Shown here in pieces: positions 6,102-22,839 of a stretch of 32,385 nucleotides of DNA; position 1 is the stretch's first letter; each line of letters begins with the position of its first letter. Source of the DNA: Candidatus Portnoybacteria bacterium RIFCSPLOWO2_01_FULL_43_11 (GTDB lineage Bacteria; Patescibacteriota; Minisyncoccia; Portnoybacterales; UBA2143); NCBI GenBank assembly GCA_001819605.1, contig MHNE01000011.1, positions 1 to 32,385 of the forward strand, written 5' to 3'. Position numbers and translations under genes: made by a program. A model generated the notes under the pieces. The model ran no database searches. It was not told where the DNA came from and was given only the letters and a program-made list of their open reading frames with translations.

Positions 6102-7646
6102 TTACTGCTTAGCCGCGTAGCCGCCCGCGTCTCCGCTATAGCACCAGCCAGTCGCGCCGTTAGCTGTAATCTTATACCAGCCGTTTTGTTCCTCAAGTAA
6201 ATTATAGACTTCTCCTTGGCTGACTTGAGTCAAAACTTCTCCGTCCAAAGAAGGCAGACTGCGAACTCTTAAAGTAGAAACTTTAATGATAATAGTATTT
6301 AAGATAGGACTCGCTCCTGAAGCTGTGATATCTAAACCAGCGGTATAAGCGTCGCGGTCAGTCGCGTTAATGTTGTAGATGGAATCAGCGTCATACCCCT
6401 TGACTGAAAAATCATTAGCGCTCATATTCAGCCATTGCTTGGCGCCGGTGTCTCCATCGGCTGTCAGCTTATAAACTCTCGTGTCATTTACTTCCCGAAT
6501 TAAATCAGAAGTGGTATAAGAATCCATTGTTGCCTGATTAATATCTGTCACATCGTTCCAGCCTTTATCGCCGTCGCCGTTCTTGTCAAAATGTCCGTAG
6601 CTTTCAAAAACATGCGGGGAGAGAATTAATCTCTTAAATTTTTTACTGCCAACCAATTTGACAATGTAAATGTCAAATTGAGCCAAGCCCGAAGCATTGG
6701 GATTTTTAATGAGGTCGCCGTCGCTAATAACCACCTCTTCGGCTGGAGTCTCGGTTGGTACTTCCTCTTCAATCGCGTCAGGCACCGCGCCCAAAACGGC
6801 AAAATAAGTAAAATGAGTAGTTTCAGCGGTTAAAGTATTATTTGCCGCGTTAACAGTGGTCGTCAAAGCAACCCATTGAGAATCGCTTTCTCTCCAATAA
6901 AAAACTTTAAGAGTGGATTCGTCAAAGGCGCTGATTTGAGCGTCCGTATAAGTAAAAGTCAGAGTAGCCGCTTTACTAAAATTACTGACCGTTTGGCTGT
7001 TAGCCGTGGCCGTGTAATCATAAATGTAATTACCCACAAGACTTCTGCCGTTGGGGAGCGGCCGGGAACCCGTTACCGTTCCTTCCGTTGAAGTAGCTAT
7101 TTTAATTATTATGGAAGCGCTCACCGCGTTAGCCGGCAACTCCGCGCTGGCTTTAGTACTCTCGTCCGTGGTTAAAGTTGTTTTACCGCCCTCGGAAACA
7201 GTAACGGTCACTTCGCCGGTACTTGTCGTAGGGACTGTTGGAGAAGGAGGCGTTGGTGTTCCGCCGCCTCCACTAGAAGGAGTACTGCCGCCGCCGGTTG
7301 TCCCGGTACAAGTGCCGCTTGGCGATATTACCAAGCTTGAACCGGAACTATTGCCTGAAACAGTTACCTGGGAATAAGAATCGCCGCAAAGTATGTCCAA
7401 GCTTAAATTGTTAACTAAATTAGCTCTGGTGGTGGAACGAATAATTAAGCTTGAATTGGCTGAAAGAGTAAAAGTTACATTAGTGGCGCCGACAACCATT
7501 TGGTCAGCCACGCCGCCGCCGGAAATCGTCAAAGCGTAGCCGCCGATGGAAATATTCGTATCTTGAGCAAAAGAAACTTCGTCAGCCGCCAAAACGGTTA
7601 TGGGCAGAAACAGTAAAGCTAAGATAAAAACAATAATTTTTTTCAT
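6102..7646 (-). CDS. Secreted surface protein with EF-hand-like conserved domain and C-terminal SH3b domain
   Basis: Signal peptide; 'GDLIKNP..AQFDIYIVKL..KKFKRLILSPHVFESYGHFDKNGDGD' domain; C-terminal 'STLRVRSLPSLDGEVLTQVSQGEVYNLLEEQNGWYKI' is SH3b-like. Confidence 0.75.
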   Translation of the reverse strand: MKKIIVFILALLFLPITVLAADEVSFAQDTNISIGGYALTISGGGVADQMVVGATNVTFTLSANSSLIIRSTTRANLVNNLSLDILCGDSYSQVTVSGNSSGSSLVISPSGTCTGTTGGGSTPSSGGGGTPTPPSPTVPTTSTGEVTVTVSEGGKTTLTTDESTKASAELPANAVSASIIIKIATSTEGTVTGSRPLPNGRSLVGNYIYDYTATANSQTVSNFSKAATLTFTYTDAQISAFDESTLKVFYWRESDSQWVALTTTVNAANNTLTAETTHFTYFAVLGAVPDAIEEEVPTETPAEEVVISDGDLIKNPNASGLAQFDIYIVKLVGSKKFKRLILSPHVFESYGHFDKNGDGDKGWNDVTDINQATMDSYTTSDLIREVNDTRVYKLTADGDTGAKQWLNMSANDFSVKGYDADSIYNINATDRDAYTAGLDITASGASPILNTIIIKVSTLRVRSLPSLDGEVLTQVSQGEVYNLLEEQNGWYKITANGATGWCYSGDAGGYAAKQ

Positions 7647-11600: not shown

Positions 11601-12209
11601 AACCGTACTTCCAGCCGCCGGAGTGTCAGCCGCTAAAGCAACAGTTAATGTGCCTTCGCTGGTCTCTGCTGAAGGCGGGAAAGCCGCGTTCGGGTCGGTA
11701 ACATTAGCGCCGGCCGTATAGCCCGCTGAATCAGTGCCGTTGATGGTATAAATTGACTCGGCGTCAAAGACAGGGGTAAATGTTTCCGCCGTCATATTGA
11801 GCCAATATTTACTACCGGTATCAGCGCCTTCTTCAGCGTGAAGCCGGTAAACCGGATCAGTGCTGATTTCTCTGACTAAATCAGAAGTGACATAGCCGTC
11901 CATAACTGCCTGACTAACGTCCATTACGTCATTCCAGTTATTGCCGTCGCCATTCTTGTCAAAATGTTTATAGCTTTCAAAAACATGCGGACTTAAAATA
12001 AGCCGCTTGAATTTTTTGGCGCCGGCCAATTTGACGATGTAAATGTCAAATTGAGCCATACCCGCGGCGCTGGGATTTCTAATCAAATCGCCGTCCACGA
12101 CATCAACCGCCAAAGCGCTCATCGGCGCGAGCATAGCCAAACCGGAAAGCCAAAGCGTGGTAGTAACTGAAGTTAAAATCGAAATCGGTTTTTGTAATTT
12201 TTTACTCAT
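8622..12209 (-). CDS. Large secreted S-layer-like protein
   Basis: 1195 aa with signal peptide; N-terminal conserved domain shared with the 514 aa protein, then repeated Ig/beta-like segments. Confidence 0.75.
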   Translation of the reverse strand: MSKKLQKPISILTSVTTTLWLSGLAMLAPMSALAVDVVDGDLIRNPSAAGMAQFDIYIVKLAGAKKFKRLILSPHVFESYKHFDKNGDGNNWNDVMDVSQAVMDGYVTSDLVREISTDPVYRLHAEEGADTGSKYWLNMTAETFTPVFDAESIYTINGTDSAGYTAGANVTDPNAAFPPSAETSEGTLTVALAADTPAAGSTVPNAARVPFTKINLTASNGDVTVDSLTVKRVGLAQDAALAGLDVIDGDTNLSINETAKTLNSVHEATFNDDIKVANGTTKPIILSANMAASLTNYAGETPALSLTSITLKGTAALNGTLPITGNAMTNNSTITIGSATVGPGAYQNATSSSIQVGKQDYTFMSFQVQAGSTEKVEFSQVKIYQQGSASLSTDLKNMELLAETTKIADGVVKSNQYVTFNFDKITLDKGQIKQFQVRADVESGSARTVDLGIYRTTDLLVKGVTYNYNITPTYSGAGTSSGNPVLSDREFTISNGTVEVQRSNEITATNIAVANNQYLGAFKFTVKGESVDVSALTLTITSSTSGNIEDALTGVELVDPNGNVVAGPTDITNNAVTVAWTDTFTAPIGDTVYKVRADLATNGGWSTNDTIYVKFTPSAMTIRGGVTSNTITATPSSSVSGNTQTVKAAALTVTRNTLPADGNIIVNQQAVTLTSWNFDASNSGEDIRITQIAFAGRGQSATNTGSLTVYADGVQQSPINDAISTQPNTSTFSLETPIIVKKGTSAKIELKGNKTTVASDATENWGMADSAGANVTAYGLSTSNAVTETLTPDHGPTLTNKVNGTLTIETSNNPSSAILLAGSTGNVFSNVKLTAQDEDLRLDQLRVLLADGGYAFSGLTGEYRDVTNVALYVGTTKLGNASIPSTGEYTFNFDADTLTILKGTGNAKTVTIKADMSTIDPNTDNAPGTNSADLKIGFGGANGVKTTGKSSNTEISTTTYETYNNSTSSAMVLRSSKPTVALPTASARLGAASSLAGGGNIGLYAFKVTADASGGDVLLYRTTFVFATTGVDLASVLIKDQNGSTIKAAVNPTVANPASPQYYYTATFDNPDFTVDTTVPSTEAIKVPAGESRTFTVYGTVTNASTGDAISTFLVGDTASTSNEVNTSNYATQFGTPDYNFASEVGNFVWSDNYKQKNIEGTGGNNATTANQWYNGHLVPGLENAVSTTVYVVGY

Positions 12210-12309: not shown

Positions 12310-12474
12310 AGAGGTCATTTCAAAACTCTCCTTTCTGCTGTAATTTTTTAATTTTGGCTGCGGCTTCGTCAGTCCTCCTCGTCGTATATTAGTCATATAC
12401 GACTTCGTCGTCCTTCCTTGCCTCGCCTAAAATTAAAAAATTTCGCTGCGAAAAAGAGTTTTGAAATGACCTCT
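12310..12474. repeat. Class I foldback element, copy 1 (MITE/REP-like)
   Basis: 20 bp perfect terminal inverted repeat AGAGGTCATTTCAAAACTCT/AGAGTTTTGAAATGACCTCT, second stem AATTTTTTAATTTT/AAAATTAAAAAATT, apical stem GTCGTATA/TATACGAC. Confidence 0.85.
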
Positions 12475-17391: not shown

Positions 17392-18162
17392 CTATATTTT
17401 AATGAATTCTTTAATTATATTAACGGGCGCTGTTTTAGTCAATCCGTTCTGATTGACTAAATTCAAACCAACTACCTCTCCTTTTGTGTTAATCAAGGGC
17501 CCGCCATTGGCCAAAGGATCTTCCTCGCTTAAGTTAAGCGAGATTGTTTCTTCTTTGATACCCCTGATGGTTCCAAGGTTTATAAAACGATAAAAATTAT
17601 CTTTTGGGACTTGCCCCGCATCTTTTTCTAAAAGGTGCGGGGTCTGAACGCCCATTAAAATAATTCTTTCGCCTAAGGCCAGTTCGTTAAGATCAGCCAA
17701 AGGAACAACCGGCAAATTGGTCTTTTCTATTTTTAAGAGAGCTAGATTGTTTTTCCCGTCTCTTTTAATGACTTGAGCCGTTGAAGAACTGTTTTCTTGA
17801 AAGACCAAATATTGGCCGGCTTTTTCAGGAACCAAATCAGCCGCGGTTATAATTAAACCGTCGGAAAAAACAATAAAGCCGGTTCCTTCGCGGATAATTT
17901 GTTTATTTTTGGATAAAGTCTGAACAGCCGTTATTGAAGGATTTATCCGTCTGATTGCTTCTTCGGCGGCAGTATTTTCCGCGATAGTGATTCTTTCAGT
18001 TTTATTTATAATAGTCGTTCCGTCTTTAGCCCGCTCAATGAATTCTATTTGAGAAAAAAAGGGAGCATCGGCCAAAAACGGCAGAAGAAACTGGTCAGCC
18101 AAAACGCCGCCCAGTCCGCCAATTATTAAAATAAGGATAAGCTTAAATATTTTTTGCTTCAT
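17392..18162 (-). CDS. HtrA/trypsin-fold protein, apparently catalytically inactive
   Basis: 'GTGFIVFSDGLIITAADLV', 'NNLALLKIEKTNLPVVPLAD', 'PLANGGPLINTKGEVVGLN' align by eye with HtrA motifs but lack His, Asp and Ser. Confidence 0.72.
   Translation of the reverse strand: MKQKIFKLILILIIGGLGGVLADQFLLPFLADAPFFSQIEFIERAKDGTTIINKTERITIAENTAAEEAIRRINPSITAVQTLSKNKQIIREGTGFIVFSDGLIITAADLVPEKAGQYLVFQENSSSTAQVIKRDGKNNLALLKIEKTNLPVVPLADLNELALGERIILMGVQTPHLLEKDAGQVPKDNFYRFINLGTIRGIKEETISLNLSEEDPLANGGPLINTKGEVVGLNLVNQNGLTKTAPVNIIKEFIKI
17614..17642. repeat. Class II palindrome, copy A (inside trypsin-fold ORF)
   Basis: CCCCGCATCTTTT tct AAAAGGTGCGGGG; 13 bp arms, one G-T mismatch. Confidence 0.85.
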
Positions 18163-18205
18163 TGGTTTTCTAAAACAAAATAAACCAATTAAACACTTTA
18201 GTCAA

Positions 18206-18330
18206 CCCCGCACCTATTGAACTTTGTCTAAAAAAGATTTTTACTTTTTTAACATTCCTAGAATTTTGCTAATTATTTTTAAGGAAATACATGATTTAAT
18301 TTATGTTAATTAAGTTCAATAGGTGCGGGG
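18206..18330. repeat. Class II palindrome, copy B (overlaps 3' end of pilD)
   Basis: 19 bp perfect arms CCCCGCACCTATTGAACTT / AAGTTCAATAGGTGCGGGG around an 87 bp AT-rich core. Confidence 0.9.
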
Positions 18331-19195
18331 TCAAACTTTCACCAAATAACATCATAAAAACAGCCGCTCCGGCCAAAAACGGGCCAAACGGAATTTGAGA
18401 CTTCAGAGTCTTTTTTTTAAAAGCGATTAAAACTAAACCAATAACCGCTCCGCTCATAAAAGCTAAAAACAAAGCCCATAAAACATTAGGCCAACCCAAA
18501 ACCAAACCCATTAAAACGGCTAATTTAACATCGCCCATTCCCATCCATTTGCCTTTGGAAACAAGAACTAAAAATAAAAAAAATCCGCTCGCTACTAGTG
18601 CTGAAAGGAGACCGTCCTTTAGGGCGAGACCCGGATCTCTGCCTAAGGGCAGGACTCCATTAAAAATTAACCAGATGCCAGCCGCTATTATGGCCGGGTA
18701 AATAATTCTATCCGGAATAATATAGTGCTTTAGATCGTAGACGAAAATGATAATCAAAATACTGATAATATAAAACCAGTAAATAAGCAGTAATAAATTT
18801 CTAATTTCTATCCCGTATTTAATACGGGACAAATCCCAAATCCCAAATCTAAAATCTAAAACTTTAAAAGATATTAATAAAAATAGAATTCCAGCGGCTA
18901 ATTCAACTAATGGGTATTGCCAAGAGATTCTATTGTAACAATATCGACACCGGCCTTTTTGAAGAACAAAGCTAAAAAGAGGAATCAAATCATACCACCT
19001 TAAAACAACCCGGCATTTTGGACAATGAGAGCGAGTCATTAACCCCGCACCTTTTGAAGATAGACTTCGTCTTTTGAAAAAAATCTTCAAAAGGTGCGGG
19101 GTAAAAATTGACTCTTTGGTTTTTAAGCGATAAATAACAACATTTAAAAAACTGCCGATAATAAGGCCGAAAAGAAAAATCAAAACGCTAAACAT
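18296..19195 (-). CDS. pilD: Prepilin peptidase
   Basis: 'GLIIGSFLNVVIYRL', 'HCPKC...CRYCYNRISWQYPLVEL', 'YDLKHYIIPD', 'GMGDVKLAVLMGLVLGW'. Confidence 0.93.
   Translation of the reverse strand: MFSVLIFLFGLIIGSFLNVVIYRLKTKESIFTPHLLKIFFKRRSLSSKGAGLMTRSHCPKCRVVLRWYDLIPLFSFVLQKGRCRYCYNRISWQYPLVELAAGILFLLISFKVLDFRFGIWDLSRIKYGIEIRNLLLLIYWFYIISILIIIFVYDLKHYIIPDRIIYPAIIAAGIWLIFNGVLPLGRDPGLALKDGLLSALVASGFFLFLVLVSKGKWMGMGDVKLAVLMGLVLGWPNVLWALFLAFMSGAVIGLVLIAFKKKTLKSQIPFGPFLAGAAVFMMLFGESLTPHLLNLININ
19043..19101. repeat. Class II palindrome, copy C (in-frame inside pilD)
   Basis: 19 bp arms CCCCGCACCTTTTGAAGAT / ATCTTCAAAAGGTGCGGGG with a 21 nt loop. Confidence 0.92.
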
Positions 19196-19736: not shown

Positions 19737-19807
19737 TTTATTTCACCTCCTTTCGTTTAAGATAAATTAAACAATAATAACATATTTTGTCTTCGACCTT
19801 TTGTACT

Positions 19808-19966
19808 AGACCTCTTGCATAATAACCTTTCTACTGCAATTTCCATATTTTGGCTGCGGCTTTGCAAAAATCTTTCAACATATACGCCGTATATGCTTCA
19901 AGATTTTTGCTTCGCCTCGCCTAAAATCTTAAAATTTCGTTGCGAAAATTATTACGCAAGAGGTCT
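19808..19966. repeat. Class I foldback element, copy 2
   Basis: AGACCTCTTGCATAAT ... ATTACGCAAGAGGTCT (15/16 complementary); shares the core ATTTTGGCTGCGGCTT...CTCGCCTAAAAT with 12310-12474. Confidence 0.85.
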
Positions 19967-19997
19967 ATTATATCAAAATTCAAATTATTAAAACTCC

Positions 19998-21203
19998 TTA
20001 GATACTGCTGGCTATATTATATATCGGCATTAGAATTGACGCAACCAAAATACCGACCATAATTCCCAAAACAACAATTAAAATTGGCTCAATTAGCTGA
20101 CTTAAATTTGCCACGGTTCTATCCACTTCTTTTGAGTAAAAGCCGGCCAAGTTTTCTAAAATAAAATCCAATTTTCCGGTTTTTTCTCCTGTCTTTATCA
20201 TCTGAACCGCCATAGCCGGAAACTGCTCAAATTTTTCCAAAACCGAACTCAAACTCTGACCAACCCTGATTTTATCTCTGGCCTCAAAAACCATTTCTTT
20301 AAAAACGGTGTTTCCCGCCACTTCGCCACAGATAGTCAGAGCTTCAATTATCGGCACCCCGCCTTTAATCAAAGTACTTAAACTCTCGGTAAAACGGGCA
20401 AGATAAGTTTCTTTAAAAACCTTGCCGAGAATCGGTAATTTTAATTTTAAATTATCCCAAACCCGGCGGCCAAAAGAAGTTTTAATGAAATAGCTGAAAC
20501 CAAAGCCCAAAATAACCAGCGCCAAACCAAGAATCCAGCCCTTGGTTTTTAAAGAATTGCTTGTCCAGATAAGAGCTCTGGTCGTCCAGGGCAAATCCGA
20601 GGAAAATTCTTCCAAAAAACTTGTCAATTGAGGCACCACCATAATCATCATTAAAACTCCGATAATTAAAAAAACGGCTAAAATAAAAGCCGGATAAATC
20701 ATCGCGCCCCGGATTTTTGAAATAAGGTAATATTCTTTTTCCAGATAATTGGCCAGATATTCCAAAGATTCCTGAAGCCGGCCGCTTACCTCGCCGGACT
20801 TAATCAGGTTAACGAAAAAAAGAGAAAATATCCTTGGGTGCTTGGCCAGGGCTTGAGAAAAAAGCATGCCGCCGTCAACACCAGAGGCGATTTCAAAAAG
20901 AGTTTCCTGAAAATGATAATTTTCCGTCTGTTCTCCCAAGGCCTTAAGAGACTGAACCAAGGGAACCTCGGCGCCGACCAAAGTGGATAACTGACGACAA
21001 AAAAGCATAACTTCTTTTCTGTTAACGCGCTCAAAAATATTAATTCTTTTCGGCAGAAAAGAAATCTTTCTGACCGCCTTTAGCCGGATAACCACTAAAT
21101 CATAACCCTGAAGCGTCTTTATCGCCGCTGATTCGCTGGCCGCTTCAACACTGCCTATCTGCGTTTCTCCTTTTTGGGTCCGGGCGAGATATTTGTATTT
21201 CAT
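19998..21203 (-). CDS. pilC: Type II secretion/type IV pilus inner membrane protein
   Basis: 'RKEVMLFCRQLSTLVGAEVPLVQSLKAL', 'LSTLIKGGVPIIEAL', three TM segments. Confidence 0.93.
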   Translation of the reverse strand: MKYKYLARTQKGETQIGSVEAASESAAIKTLQGYDLVVIRLKAVRKISFLPKRINIFERVNRKEVMLFCRQLSTLVGAEVPLVQSLKALGEQTENYHFQETLFEIASGVDGGMLFSQALAKHPRIFSLFFVNLIKSGEVSGRLQESLEYLANYLEKEYYLISKIRGAMIYPAFILAVFLIIGVLMMIMVVPQLTSFLEEFSSDLPWTTRALIWTSNSLKTKGWILGLALVILGFGFSYFIKTSFGRRVWDNLKLKLPILGKVFKETYLARFTESLSTLIKGGVPIIEALTICGEVAGNTVFKEMVFEARDKIRVGQSLSSVLEKFEQFPAMAVQMIKTGEKTGKLDFILENLAGFYSKEVDRTVANLSQLIEPILIVVLGIMVGILVASILMPIYNIASSI

Positions 21204-21304
21204 AAATCGCGAATATAGTCTCTAATTTTATCTCTAATAATCACGGATATAAAAATGGTTATTAGAGATAATTCGAGATAGAATTCGGACTTGATTAGTG
21301 ATTT
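21204..21304. repeat. Class III foldback, copy 1 (pilT-pilC junction)
   Basis: Contains TTATCTCTAATAA...TTATTAGAGATAA and inverted ends AAATCGCGAAT/ATTAGTGATTT; homologous to 22370-22471. Confidence 0.85.
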
Positions 21305-22376
21305 ACTTTTTTAACAGCATTCTCAACTCTGAAATATTAGTTGAGTAAAGCTCAGCGTTCTCTATGGAAATTATACCAAAATTAACCAAATCAGCCAAAG
21401 AACGATTCAGAGAAATCATCCCCTCTTCAGAGCTGGTTTCAATAACCATATCTATCTGATGAGTTTTTCCTTCCCGGATTAAATTCCTGACAGCGGAATT
21501 AACCAGCATCAATTCAACCGCGTTAATTACCCCTTTACCGATTTTTGGAACAAGCCGCCTGGAAAGTATGCCTAAAAGCGTGGAAGCCAACTGCTGACGA
21601 ATCTGATTTTGTTGATAAGGCGGGAAGCTGTCAATAATCCGGTCAATGGTTTGGGCCGCGGTATTTGTATGAAGCGTGGCAAAAACCAAGTGCCCTGTTT
21701 CAGCGGCCGTGACCGCGCTTGAAATTGTTTCAGGGTCGCGCATTTCGCCTATCATAATCACATCCGGATCTTGACGAAAAACTTCCCTTAGGCCGCGATG
21801 AAAATCCAGAACATCTTCACCAACCTCTCTTTGGTCAATAACGCATTTATCGTCTTTAAACAGATATTCTATCGGGTCTTCAATGGTGACAATATGGTCA
21901 AAGCGAGTATGGTTTACTTCATCAATTAAGGCGGCCAAGGCCGTGGTTTTGCCTTGGCCCGAAGGGCCGACCACCAAAAAAAATCCTTGGGAAAACTTGG
22001 TAATTTTATGGCAATATTCCGGCAGATTTAATTCCTTGATAGTTTTGATTTTGGTCGGGATATACCGCAAGGCAACATTTACTTGCCCCAACTGATGATA
22101 AATATTAATTCTGAATCTGGCTTTATCCTGATAATTGAAAGATAAATCAATGTCTCTTTTAGAAAGAAAACTTTTCTTTCTTTCTTCGGAAAGAAGAGAA
22201 AAGGCAATATTTTGAGTGTCGTCATTGGTCAAAATCCGTCTCTTGGTTATGGGGCTCAACTGGCCGTCAACGCGCAAAATCGGCGGCTGGCCGGGAGTCA
22301 GATGAACATCAGAAGCGCTTTTCTGAACCGCTATCCCCAAAATTTCCTCCAATTGTTTTTGATAGTCATTATTCAC
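21303..22376 (-). CDS. pilT: Type IV pilus retraction-type ATPase
   Basis: 'GPSGQGKTTALAALIDEVN' Walker A, 'VTIEDPIEYLFKD', 'GEMRDPETISSAVTAAETGHLVFATLHTN'; GTG start. Confidence 0.92.
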   Translation of the reverse strand: MNNDYQKQLEEILGIAVQKSASDVHLTPGQPPILRVDGQLSPITKRRILTNDDTQNIAFSLLSEERKKSFLSKRDIDLSFNYQDKARFRINIYHQLGQVNVALRYIPTKIKTIKELNLPEYCHKITKFSQGFFLVVGPSGQGKTTALAALIDEVNHTRFDHIVTIEDPIEYLFKDDKCVIDQREVGEDVLDFHRGLREVFRQDPDVIMIGEMRDPETISSAVTAAETGHLVFATLHTNTAAQTIDRIIDSFPPYQQNQIRQQLASTLLGILSRRLVPKIGKGVINAVELMLVNSAVRNLIREGKTHQIDMVIETSSEEGMISLNRSLADLVNFGIISIENAELYSTNISELRMLLKK

Positions 22377-22471
22377 GAATATAATCTCTAATTTTATCTC
22401 GAATATTCACGAATATTTTTATGTTTTATTCGTGAGAATTCGCGATAGAATTGAGAATTGATTAGCGATTT
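22370..22471. repeat. Class III foldback, copy 2 (response regulator-pilT junction)
   Basis: GAATATTCACGAATA / TATTCGTGAGAATTC inverted repeat; direct homolog of copy 1 (TATAATCTCTAATTTTATCTC ... GATTAGCGATTTACTTTT). Confidence 0.85.
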
Positions 22472-22839
22472 ACTTTTGCCAATATTTCTTTCACTTTAGC
22501 CACCACGGCGCTCGGAGTAAAATGAGCTTTTATAATATATTCGCGAGCGCCCATTTTTAAGCCTTTCTCAACGTCGTCTTTTTGGCCAAGATTGGTCAAT
22601 AAAATTACCGGAATTTTTTCTAATTCCTCGTTCTTTTTTATTTTTTCCAGAACATCAAAACCGTCCGCTTTCGGCAAAACAATATCCAAGAGAATCAAGT
22701 CGGGCCTTTCTTTTTCAATCTTTTCCAGTCCTTCTTGACCGTCAGCGGCCACCCCGACCTCAAAACCGGCCTGATTGAATTTTGCCGCATACATTTCGCT
22801 TAAAAACGGGTCATCTTCAATAATAAGAATTTTTTGCAT
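22462..22839 (-). CDS. CheY-like response regulator receiver
   Basis: 'KILIIEDDPFLSEMYAAKF', 'PDLILLDIVLPKADGFDVL', 'PVILLTNLGQKDDV', 'YIIKAHF'. Confidence 0.94.
   Translation of the reverse strand: MQKILIIEDDPFLSEMYAAKFNQAGFEVGVAADGQEGLEKIEKERPDLILLDIVLPKADGFDVLEKIKKNEELEKIPVILLTNLGQKDDVEKGLKMGAREYIIKAHFTPSAVVAKVKEILAKVNR

Follow-up and report, generated by a model that had tools for sequence, protein, structure and literature searches.

A 59-bp palindrome lying in frame in the prepilin peptidase gene pilD of a Candidatus Portnoybacteria genome is best explained as non-autonomous and MITE-like, a copy derived from a very small insertion element which encodes a GIY-YIG nuclease, and as having been moved in trans by a related nuclease. 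We give this reading a probability of roughly three in four. An insertion element of this kind is apparently undescribed, and mobilisation by the nuclease is inferred and has not been demonstrated. The evidence is purely computational, without experiments and without data on expression, proteomics or mobility. The window, that is the whole stretch of DNA analysed, comprises 32,385 nucleotides and belongs to a 702-kb draft genome which is 83.5% complete. The genomes compared with it are mostly drafts as well, many of them assembled from metagenomes. Coordinates are collected in Table 1.

Table 1. Positions of elements, target duplications and genes (window coordinates unless a contig or locus is named)
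Feature	Position	Strand	Basis or context
pilD, prepilin peptidase, one element inside and one at the 3' end	18296..19195	-	Pfam A24_N_bact and Peptidase_A24
Palindromic element, 59 bp, in frame in pilD	19043..19101	.	inverted repeat, orthologue alignment, fold energy
Inferred target duplication, 4 bp, left copy (+ strand), TTAA	19039..19042	.	sequence and same-genus empty site
Inferred target duplication, right copy, TAAA (one substitution relative to TTAA)	19102..19105	.	sequence and same-genus empty site
Family copy, 125 bp, overlapping 3' end and stop of pilD	18206..18330	.	19-bp arms, colinearity with GIY-YIG-bearing copy
Target duplication TCAA, left of 125-bp copy	18202..18205	.	flank comparison
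Target duplication TCAA, right of 125-bp copy	18331..18334	.	flank comparison
HtrA-like serine protease gene with short copy	17392..18162	-	Trypsin_2
Short copy, 29 bp, in HtrA-like protease gene, read as TPHLLEKDAGQ	17614..17642	.	sequence
Longer imperfect palindrome with AGAGGTC..GACCTCT ends	19803-19972 and 12310-12474		between pilin and pilC genes, and elsewhere
Gene-bearing copy, 302 bp, family ends, TTGA/TTGA duplication	C27:15300-15601		sequence
Palindrome-flanked tRNA loci	G000:C8:78018-78120; L203:7415-7517; L142, L152, L153, L229

The palindrome in the prepilin peptidase gene

A preliminary description of this DNA had reported a hairpin of 59 bp with 19-bp arms which is read through in pilD, and the positions it gave are those of the element exactly. 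The element is CCCCGCACCTTTTGAAGAT ... ATCTTCAAAAGGTGCGGGG, its arms are perfect, and the translation across it is TPHLLKIFFKRRSLSSKGAG. As single-stranded DNA it reaches -24.7 kcal/mol as compared with -5.35 +/- 1.82 for shuffled sequences (z = -10.6; 0 of 200 as good), and this stretch has an inverted-repeat score of 20, the best shuffle reaching 9. The reading frame had been described as open with intact motifs, and indeed the invariant cysteines 58, 61, 83, and 86 and the aspartates 154 and 222 are all present. Equally borne out was the statement that only few residues usually precede the zinc motif: in nearly all orthologues the KESI-type residues are followed by three residues and then by the motif. 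Conservation of the insert in PilD orthologues without the palindrome had been named as the observation which would refute an insertion. The insert of about 21 residues is found in none of 97 aligned orthologues, 80 of them taken from public genomes and 17 from related genomes, with one of the same genus.

The pilD gene from the same genus provides an empty site, GAG CCG ATT TTA ATT GGC CGT, which can be set beside the filled site of the window, GAG TCA ATT TTT A[59 bp]TTA ATG ACT CGC. This fits a putative TTAA target which was duplicated at insertion and later acquired one substitution. As the 59 bp of the element and the 4 bp of the duplication add up to 63 bp, or 21 residues, the frame of pilD is kept. 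In an AlphaFold2 model with a mean pLDDT of 82.7 the residues of low confidence, 33–54, correspond to the insert, and the remainder is mostly confident. The extra residues are thus predicted to form a disordered loop ahead of the zinc-binding cysteines, which is probably tolerated and not useful. Strong palindromes of other, unrelated kinds occupy the same PilD loop elsewhere, in three further genomes at the least (L249, L250, L251; weaker ones in L031 and L063), which marks this loop as a spot tolerant of insertions.

Copies of the palindrome in the genome

About 18 copies with CCCCGCACC ends occur in the genome of the window. The genome-wide search with the arm which had been proposed earlier yielded 30 occurrences of the motif ACCCCGCACC and none of its reversed control, mostly as facing pairs spanning 26–125 bp. 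The family is dispersed in this genome and in a sister genome of the same genus (G001), with reversed-pattern controls near zero. Two further copies within 1.5 kb of the pilD palindrome had been missed by the preliminary description. The 125-bp copy supplies the final residues and the stop codon of pilD, and the 29-bp copy has imperfect arms and lacks a clean target duplication.

In-frame copies were also found in LepA, RF2, peptide deformylase, and IleRS of the same genome, and a related type of palindrome lies in frame in LigA of another genome. The inserted residues appear as gaps or breaks relative to solved structures or family models, with structures serving for LepA, RF2, and peptide deformylase. 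Element length plus 4 is divisible by three in 10 of 11 copies spanned by an open reading frame, and the sole deviating case, L162, probably does not represent a true gene. These counts indicate that copies persist in coding genes when the element together with the 4 bp makes a multiple of three, a retention which would most simply reflect selection against frame-breaking and disruptive insertions. Besides its palindrome the LepA gene (L003 505-2331) contains the stretch NSKFKIQNSKF, which is encoded by a simple repeat and is partly missing in the solved homologue.

The window contains other repeats. The longer imperfect palindrome of Table 1 has further partial matches in the genome and a 163-bp copy with 94% identity in G001, and is possibly another mobile element. 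Two AT-rich direct repeats (85-86%) rich in CGAATAT-like units are situated beside the pilus ATPase gene (21200-21310 and 22366-22477), and two large surface-protein-like genes have related coding segments with 70-80% DNA identity in common (6492-6722 and 11868-12095).

Element ends and target duplication

Hardly any variation is seen in the outer nine bases, CCCCGCACC, and the next ten differ among the copies with the opposite arm mostly changed to match. Judged from these copies the arms vary in sequence and keep their complementarity, which implies either that the hairpin is selected or recognised or that the arms are copied from each other. A target duplication of at least 4 bp flanks 38 of 77 copies, as compared with 8% in a null in which flanks of different copies were paired. 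Where exactly 4 bp are duplicated (n=35) the first base is T in 33 cases and the last base is A in all 35. The length of 4 bp rests on placing the element boundary at CCCC/GGGG, which gives the consensus TNNA. A first reading as a 2-bp duplication was dropped as this boundary yields a consistent 4 bp, and with it the easy fit to the 2-nt overhangs of known GIY-YIG enzymes was lost. An intact duplication is absent in about half of the copies, and the pilD copy has one mismatch. The flanks show that insertion takes place at short AT-rich sites, TNNA in the family of the pilD palindrome, and duplicates 4 bp. The MITE criteria of terminal inverted repeats and absence of a gene are met, and that of a target duplication is met in about half of the copies.

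Several tRNA genes (Arg-TCT, Arg-GCG, Pro-GGG, Val-CAC, Pro-CGG) are found between facing palindrome arms in segments of 103-111 bp without a clean target duplication. They may be cargo, or the palindromes may have inserted around the tRNA.

A copy with a GIY-YIG gene

One copy with the family ends, the 302-bp element on C27, encodes one gene only, that of an 85-aa GIY-YIG protein (Pfam PF01541, E 4.7e-16), for which the UPF0213 proteins 1zg2 and 1ywl are the nearest solved structures. Its 19-bp arms are identical to those of the 125-bp copy beside pilD. Directly inward of the right arm the two elements are colinear (0 of 5000 shuffles), and inward of the left arm they are weakly so (44 of 5000 shuffles). 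Identical arms and colinear internal sequence are the grounds on which the 125-bp copy is likely to be an internally deleted derivative of the C27 element, the classic MITE relation. The MITE criterion of ends common with a gene-bearing element plus internal deletion is met on this comparison, and autonomy of the larger element has not been shown.

Small GIY-YIG genes across Patescibacteria

Homologues of the C27 nuclease were detected in 47 of 55 related genomes. Tight inverted repeats, defined by a score of at least 12, surround 49 of 92 small GIY-YIG genes (53%) as compared with 2 of 481 control windows (0.4%); no strong inverted repeat was seen at the other 47% of the genes examined. As delimited by these repeats, a full-length member is an element of about 265-350 bp composed of two terminal inverted repeats and one gene for a predicted nuclease of about 85 amino acids. 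The sequence of the repeat differs by lineage and clusters on the nuclease tree; for each of three types, none of 500 shuffles gave so low a value. This tree is poorly resolved, and the repeat types were labelled by regular expressions which misclassed L183 and L274, an error tending to blur the reported clustering.

The CCCCGTTAGA type of arm, which first came to notice around nucleases, is plentiful in many genomes with a maximum of 132 in one, and controls are near zero. A test by prediction was offered by the CCAGGTAGT type, which was read from the nuclease elements of two genomes (G015 and G018) and then sought genome-wide. G015 has 25 places with this type, G018 has 59, G017 has 31, and each of the other genomes has no more than three. 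Between their two arms the palindromes show the GA/AG asymmetry which is also seen in the nuclease elements, and exactly 4 bp are duplicated in 24 of 41 fetched pairs against a null of 19%. Repeat types of nuclease elements are found again, within the same genomes, on palindromes without a nuclease, and both kinds show 4-bp duplications. Palindrome-rich genomes make up 27 of the 47 with a GIY-YIG homologue and 0 of the 8 without (Fisher p = 0.004, no phylogenetic correction). In G001, which has many palindromes of the family, the two GIY-YIG elements carry different repeats and no matching nuclease was found, so that its driver was lost, is unassembled, or is something else.

Some further sites deserve description. 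The CCAGGTAGT family (L330-L365) targets CATA/TATG, possibly including start-codon contexts. A GIY-YIG element with inverted repeats lies inside a 16S rRNA gene (L319), and another abuts or overlaps the 5' end of an RNase P RNA (L167:1485-1776). Small GIY-YIG genes without strong inverted repeats were seen close 3' of or beside tmRNA genes (L171, L176, L179), others adjoin tRNA genes, and this is perhaps a second mode of integration.

Proposed mechanism and alternative explanations

In the mechanism which we propose the nuclease, whose activity is itself inferred, would recognise the repeat or its hairpin or cruciform form and would make, or help to make, a staggered break at the target. Element DNA would then be joined or copied into the break, and filling of the gaps would leave the 4-bp duplication. 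A related nuclease acting in trans may mobilise the palindromes which lost the gene. The overhangs left by well-studied GIY-YIG enzymes are 2 nt long. A stagger of 4 nt would therefore mean that this family differs, that two independent nicks are made, or that another activity helps. To our knowledge a nuclease of 85 amino acids is far below the size of known transposases.

The alternative which survives best, though we consider it unlikely, treats the GIY-YIG gene as a passenger, with an unidentified transposase, for instance a DDE enzyme acting in trans, moving anything that has these ends. Classical insertion sequences typically show terminal repeats together with a duplication of constant length, as the 4 bp are here, and G001 has palindromes without the matching nuclease. 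Against a passenger gene stand the repeat type tracking the nuclease phylogeny, the several independent repeat types each found around nucleases, and the presence of a GIY-YIG homologue in all palindrome-rich genomes. The fetched loci contained no longer element, of 330-4000 bp, which combined these ends with a duplication. As for a driver other than the nuclease, only the Y1 transposase family was examined.

Spread of the GIY-YIG genes by homing, in which the empty site is cut and the gene copied in by recombination with the palindromes as debris, has very little in its favour. GIY-YIG nucleases are classical homing enzymes, and the elements in the 16S rRNA gene and at the RNase P RNA speak for such a process. 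Homing would, however, not give copies with 4-bp duplications scattered over unrelated genes at non-allelic sites, and no group I intron structure was recognised around the elements, since none of 47 GIY-YIG or element loci matched an intron family at the Rfam gathering threshold.

Slightly weaker still is the proposal that these are palindromes of the REP/REPIN type moved by a Y1 (RAYT, IS200-like) transposase, to which their shortness, their many copies, and the commonness of Y1 transposases in relatives might point. The draft genome of the window, with its incompleteness, contains no Y1 match (PF01797), and neither do several palindrome-rich draft genomes of relatives, such as G014, G017, G022, G029, G040, and G049. 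A 4-bp duplication is not expected under single-strand transposition by HUH/Y1 enzymes. For the genome of the window a RAYT/REPIN system is excluded as far as the draft shows, as no Y1 transposase is present and none is needed in relatives.

That the palindrome is not mobile at all, being an old functional PilD loop with DNA palindromic by chance or an RNA hairpin under selection, for instance as a regulator, would agree with the intact frame and with arms which covary among copies so that pairing is kept, but it is virtually ruled out, and a conserved PilD loop was rejected, by the 97 orthologues lacking the insert, the empty site, and the same ends in unrelated genes and intergenic regions with target duplications.

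Comparison with known systems

Like the REP/REPIN palindromes with their RAYT partners, the present palindromes are short and abundant and their types differ by genome or clade; they differ in having target duplications and lying inside genes, and in that the Y1 driver was not found in the draft genome of the window and is not needed across relatives. With MITEs they have in common the terminal inverted repeats, the target duplication, the lack of a gene, and one copy which resembles an internal deletion of a gene-bearing element. The putative autonomous partner here encodes a GIY-YIG nuclease and not a transposase of a known insertion-sequence family. We know of no GIY-YIG fold driving a bacterial DNA transposon, and the literature covered, which was incomplete and excluded most subscription papers and ISfinder, did not yield any account of such an element in connection with palindromes, MITEs or terminal repeats. 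Should the nuclease prove to be the mover, few transposition enzymes would be as small.

Insertions with GIY-YIG genes in rRNA genes of CPR bacteria were reported to match neither intron class, many further insertions being short (<200 bp) and without an open reading frame (PMC11270868). In the passages considered here the GIY-YIG insertions are placed outside homing and no mobile-element structure is offered for them, and the main text of that paper uses neither the word "palindrome" nor the word "repeat". The inverted-repeat element in the 16S rRNA gene (L319) resembles these insertions, so far as they are described there. Elements of its type may explain this unclassified class. More generally, extra segments in the core proteins and in the rRNA genes of Patescibacteria, which are usually treated as lineage oddities, gain a possible explanation.

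Palindromes invading genes in frame have been known from Rickettsia since 2000. These Rickettsia palindromic elements (RPEs), also reported in Wolbachia, and the present ones are alike in being palindromic and dispersed and in lying in frame within conserved protein genes which are unrelated to one another, here PilD, LepA, RF2, peptide deformylase, IleRS, and LigA. RPEs have been found fused in tmRNA and RNase P RNA genes (PMC2229807), and related elements of this study are situated within or beside genes for 16S rRNA, RNase P RNA, and tmRNA. They differ in phylum and sequence, and in length, most present copies having 26-150 bp as compared with 105-146 bp for RPEs. For RPEs, which insert in frame, the mover and the target duplication are listed as unknown (PMC2229807, PMC10969869), whereas the present elements have a 4-bp duplication and a candidate driver gene. 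The resemblance to RPEs suggested at the outset thus holds for behaviour, including the many conserved genes and the structural RNA genes. As membership of an RPE family is not established and the host belongs to a different phylum, the likeness is one of behaviour, and the palindrome is not claimed to be an RPE itself. Evenly balanced in our judgement is the wider proposal of a new minimal class of transposon, in which a stand-alone GIY-YIG nuclease of about 85 amino acids, encoded between terminal inverted repeats, would drive 4-bp-duplicating insertion and mobilise in-frame palindromes across Patescibacteria, and which could also explain the palindromes of Rickettsia and Wolbachia and the short rRNA insertions of CPR bacteria. 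With RPEs as the first, the present elements make a second and very widespread case of in-frame gene-invading palindromes, located in a deep bacterial radiation, with exact ends and target duplication now defined and one small testable protein indicated.
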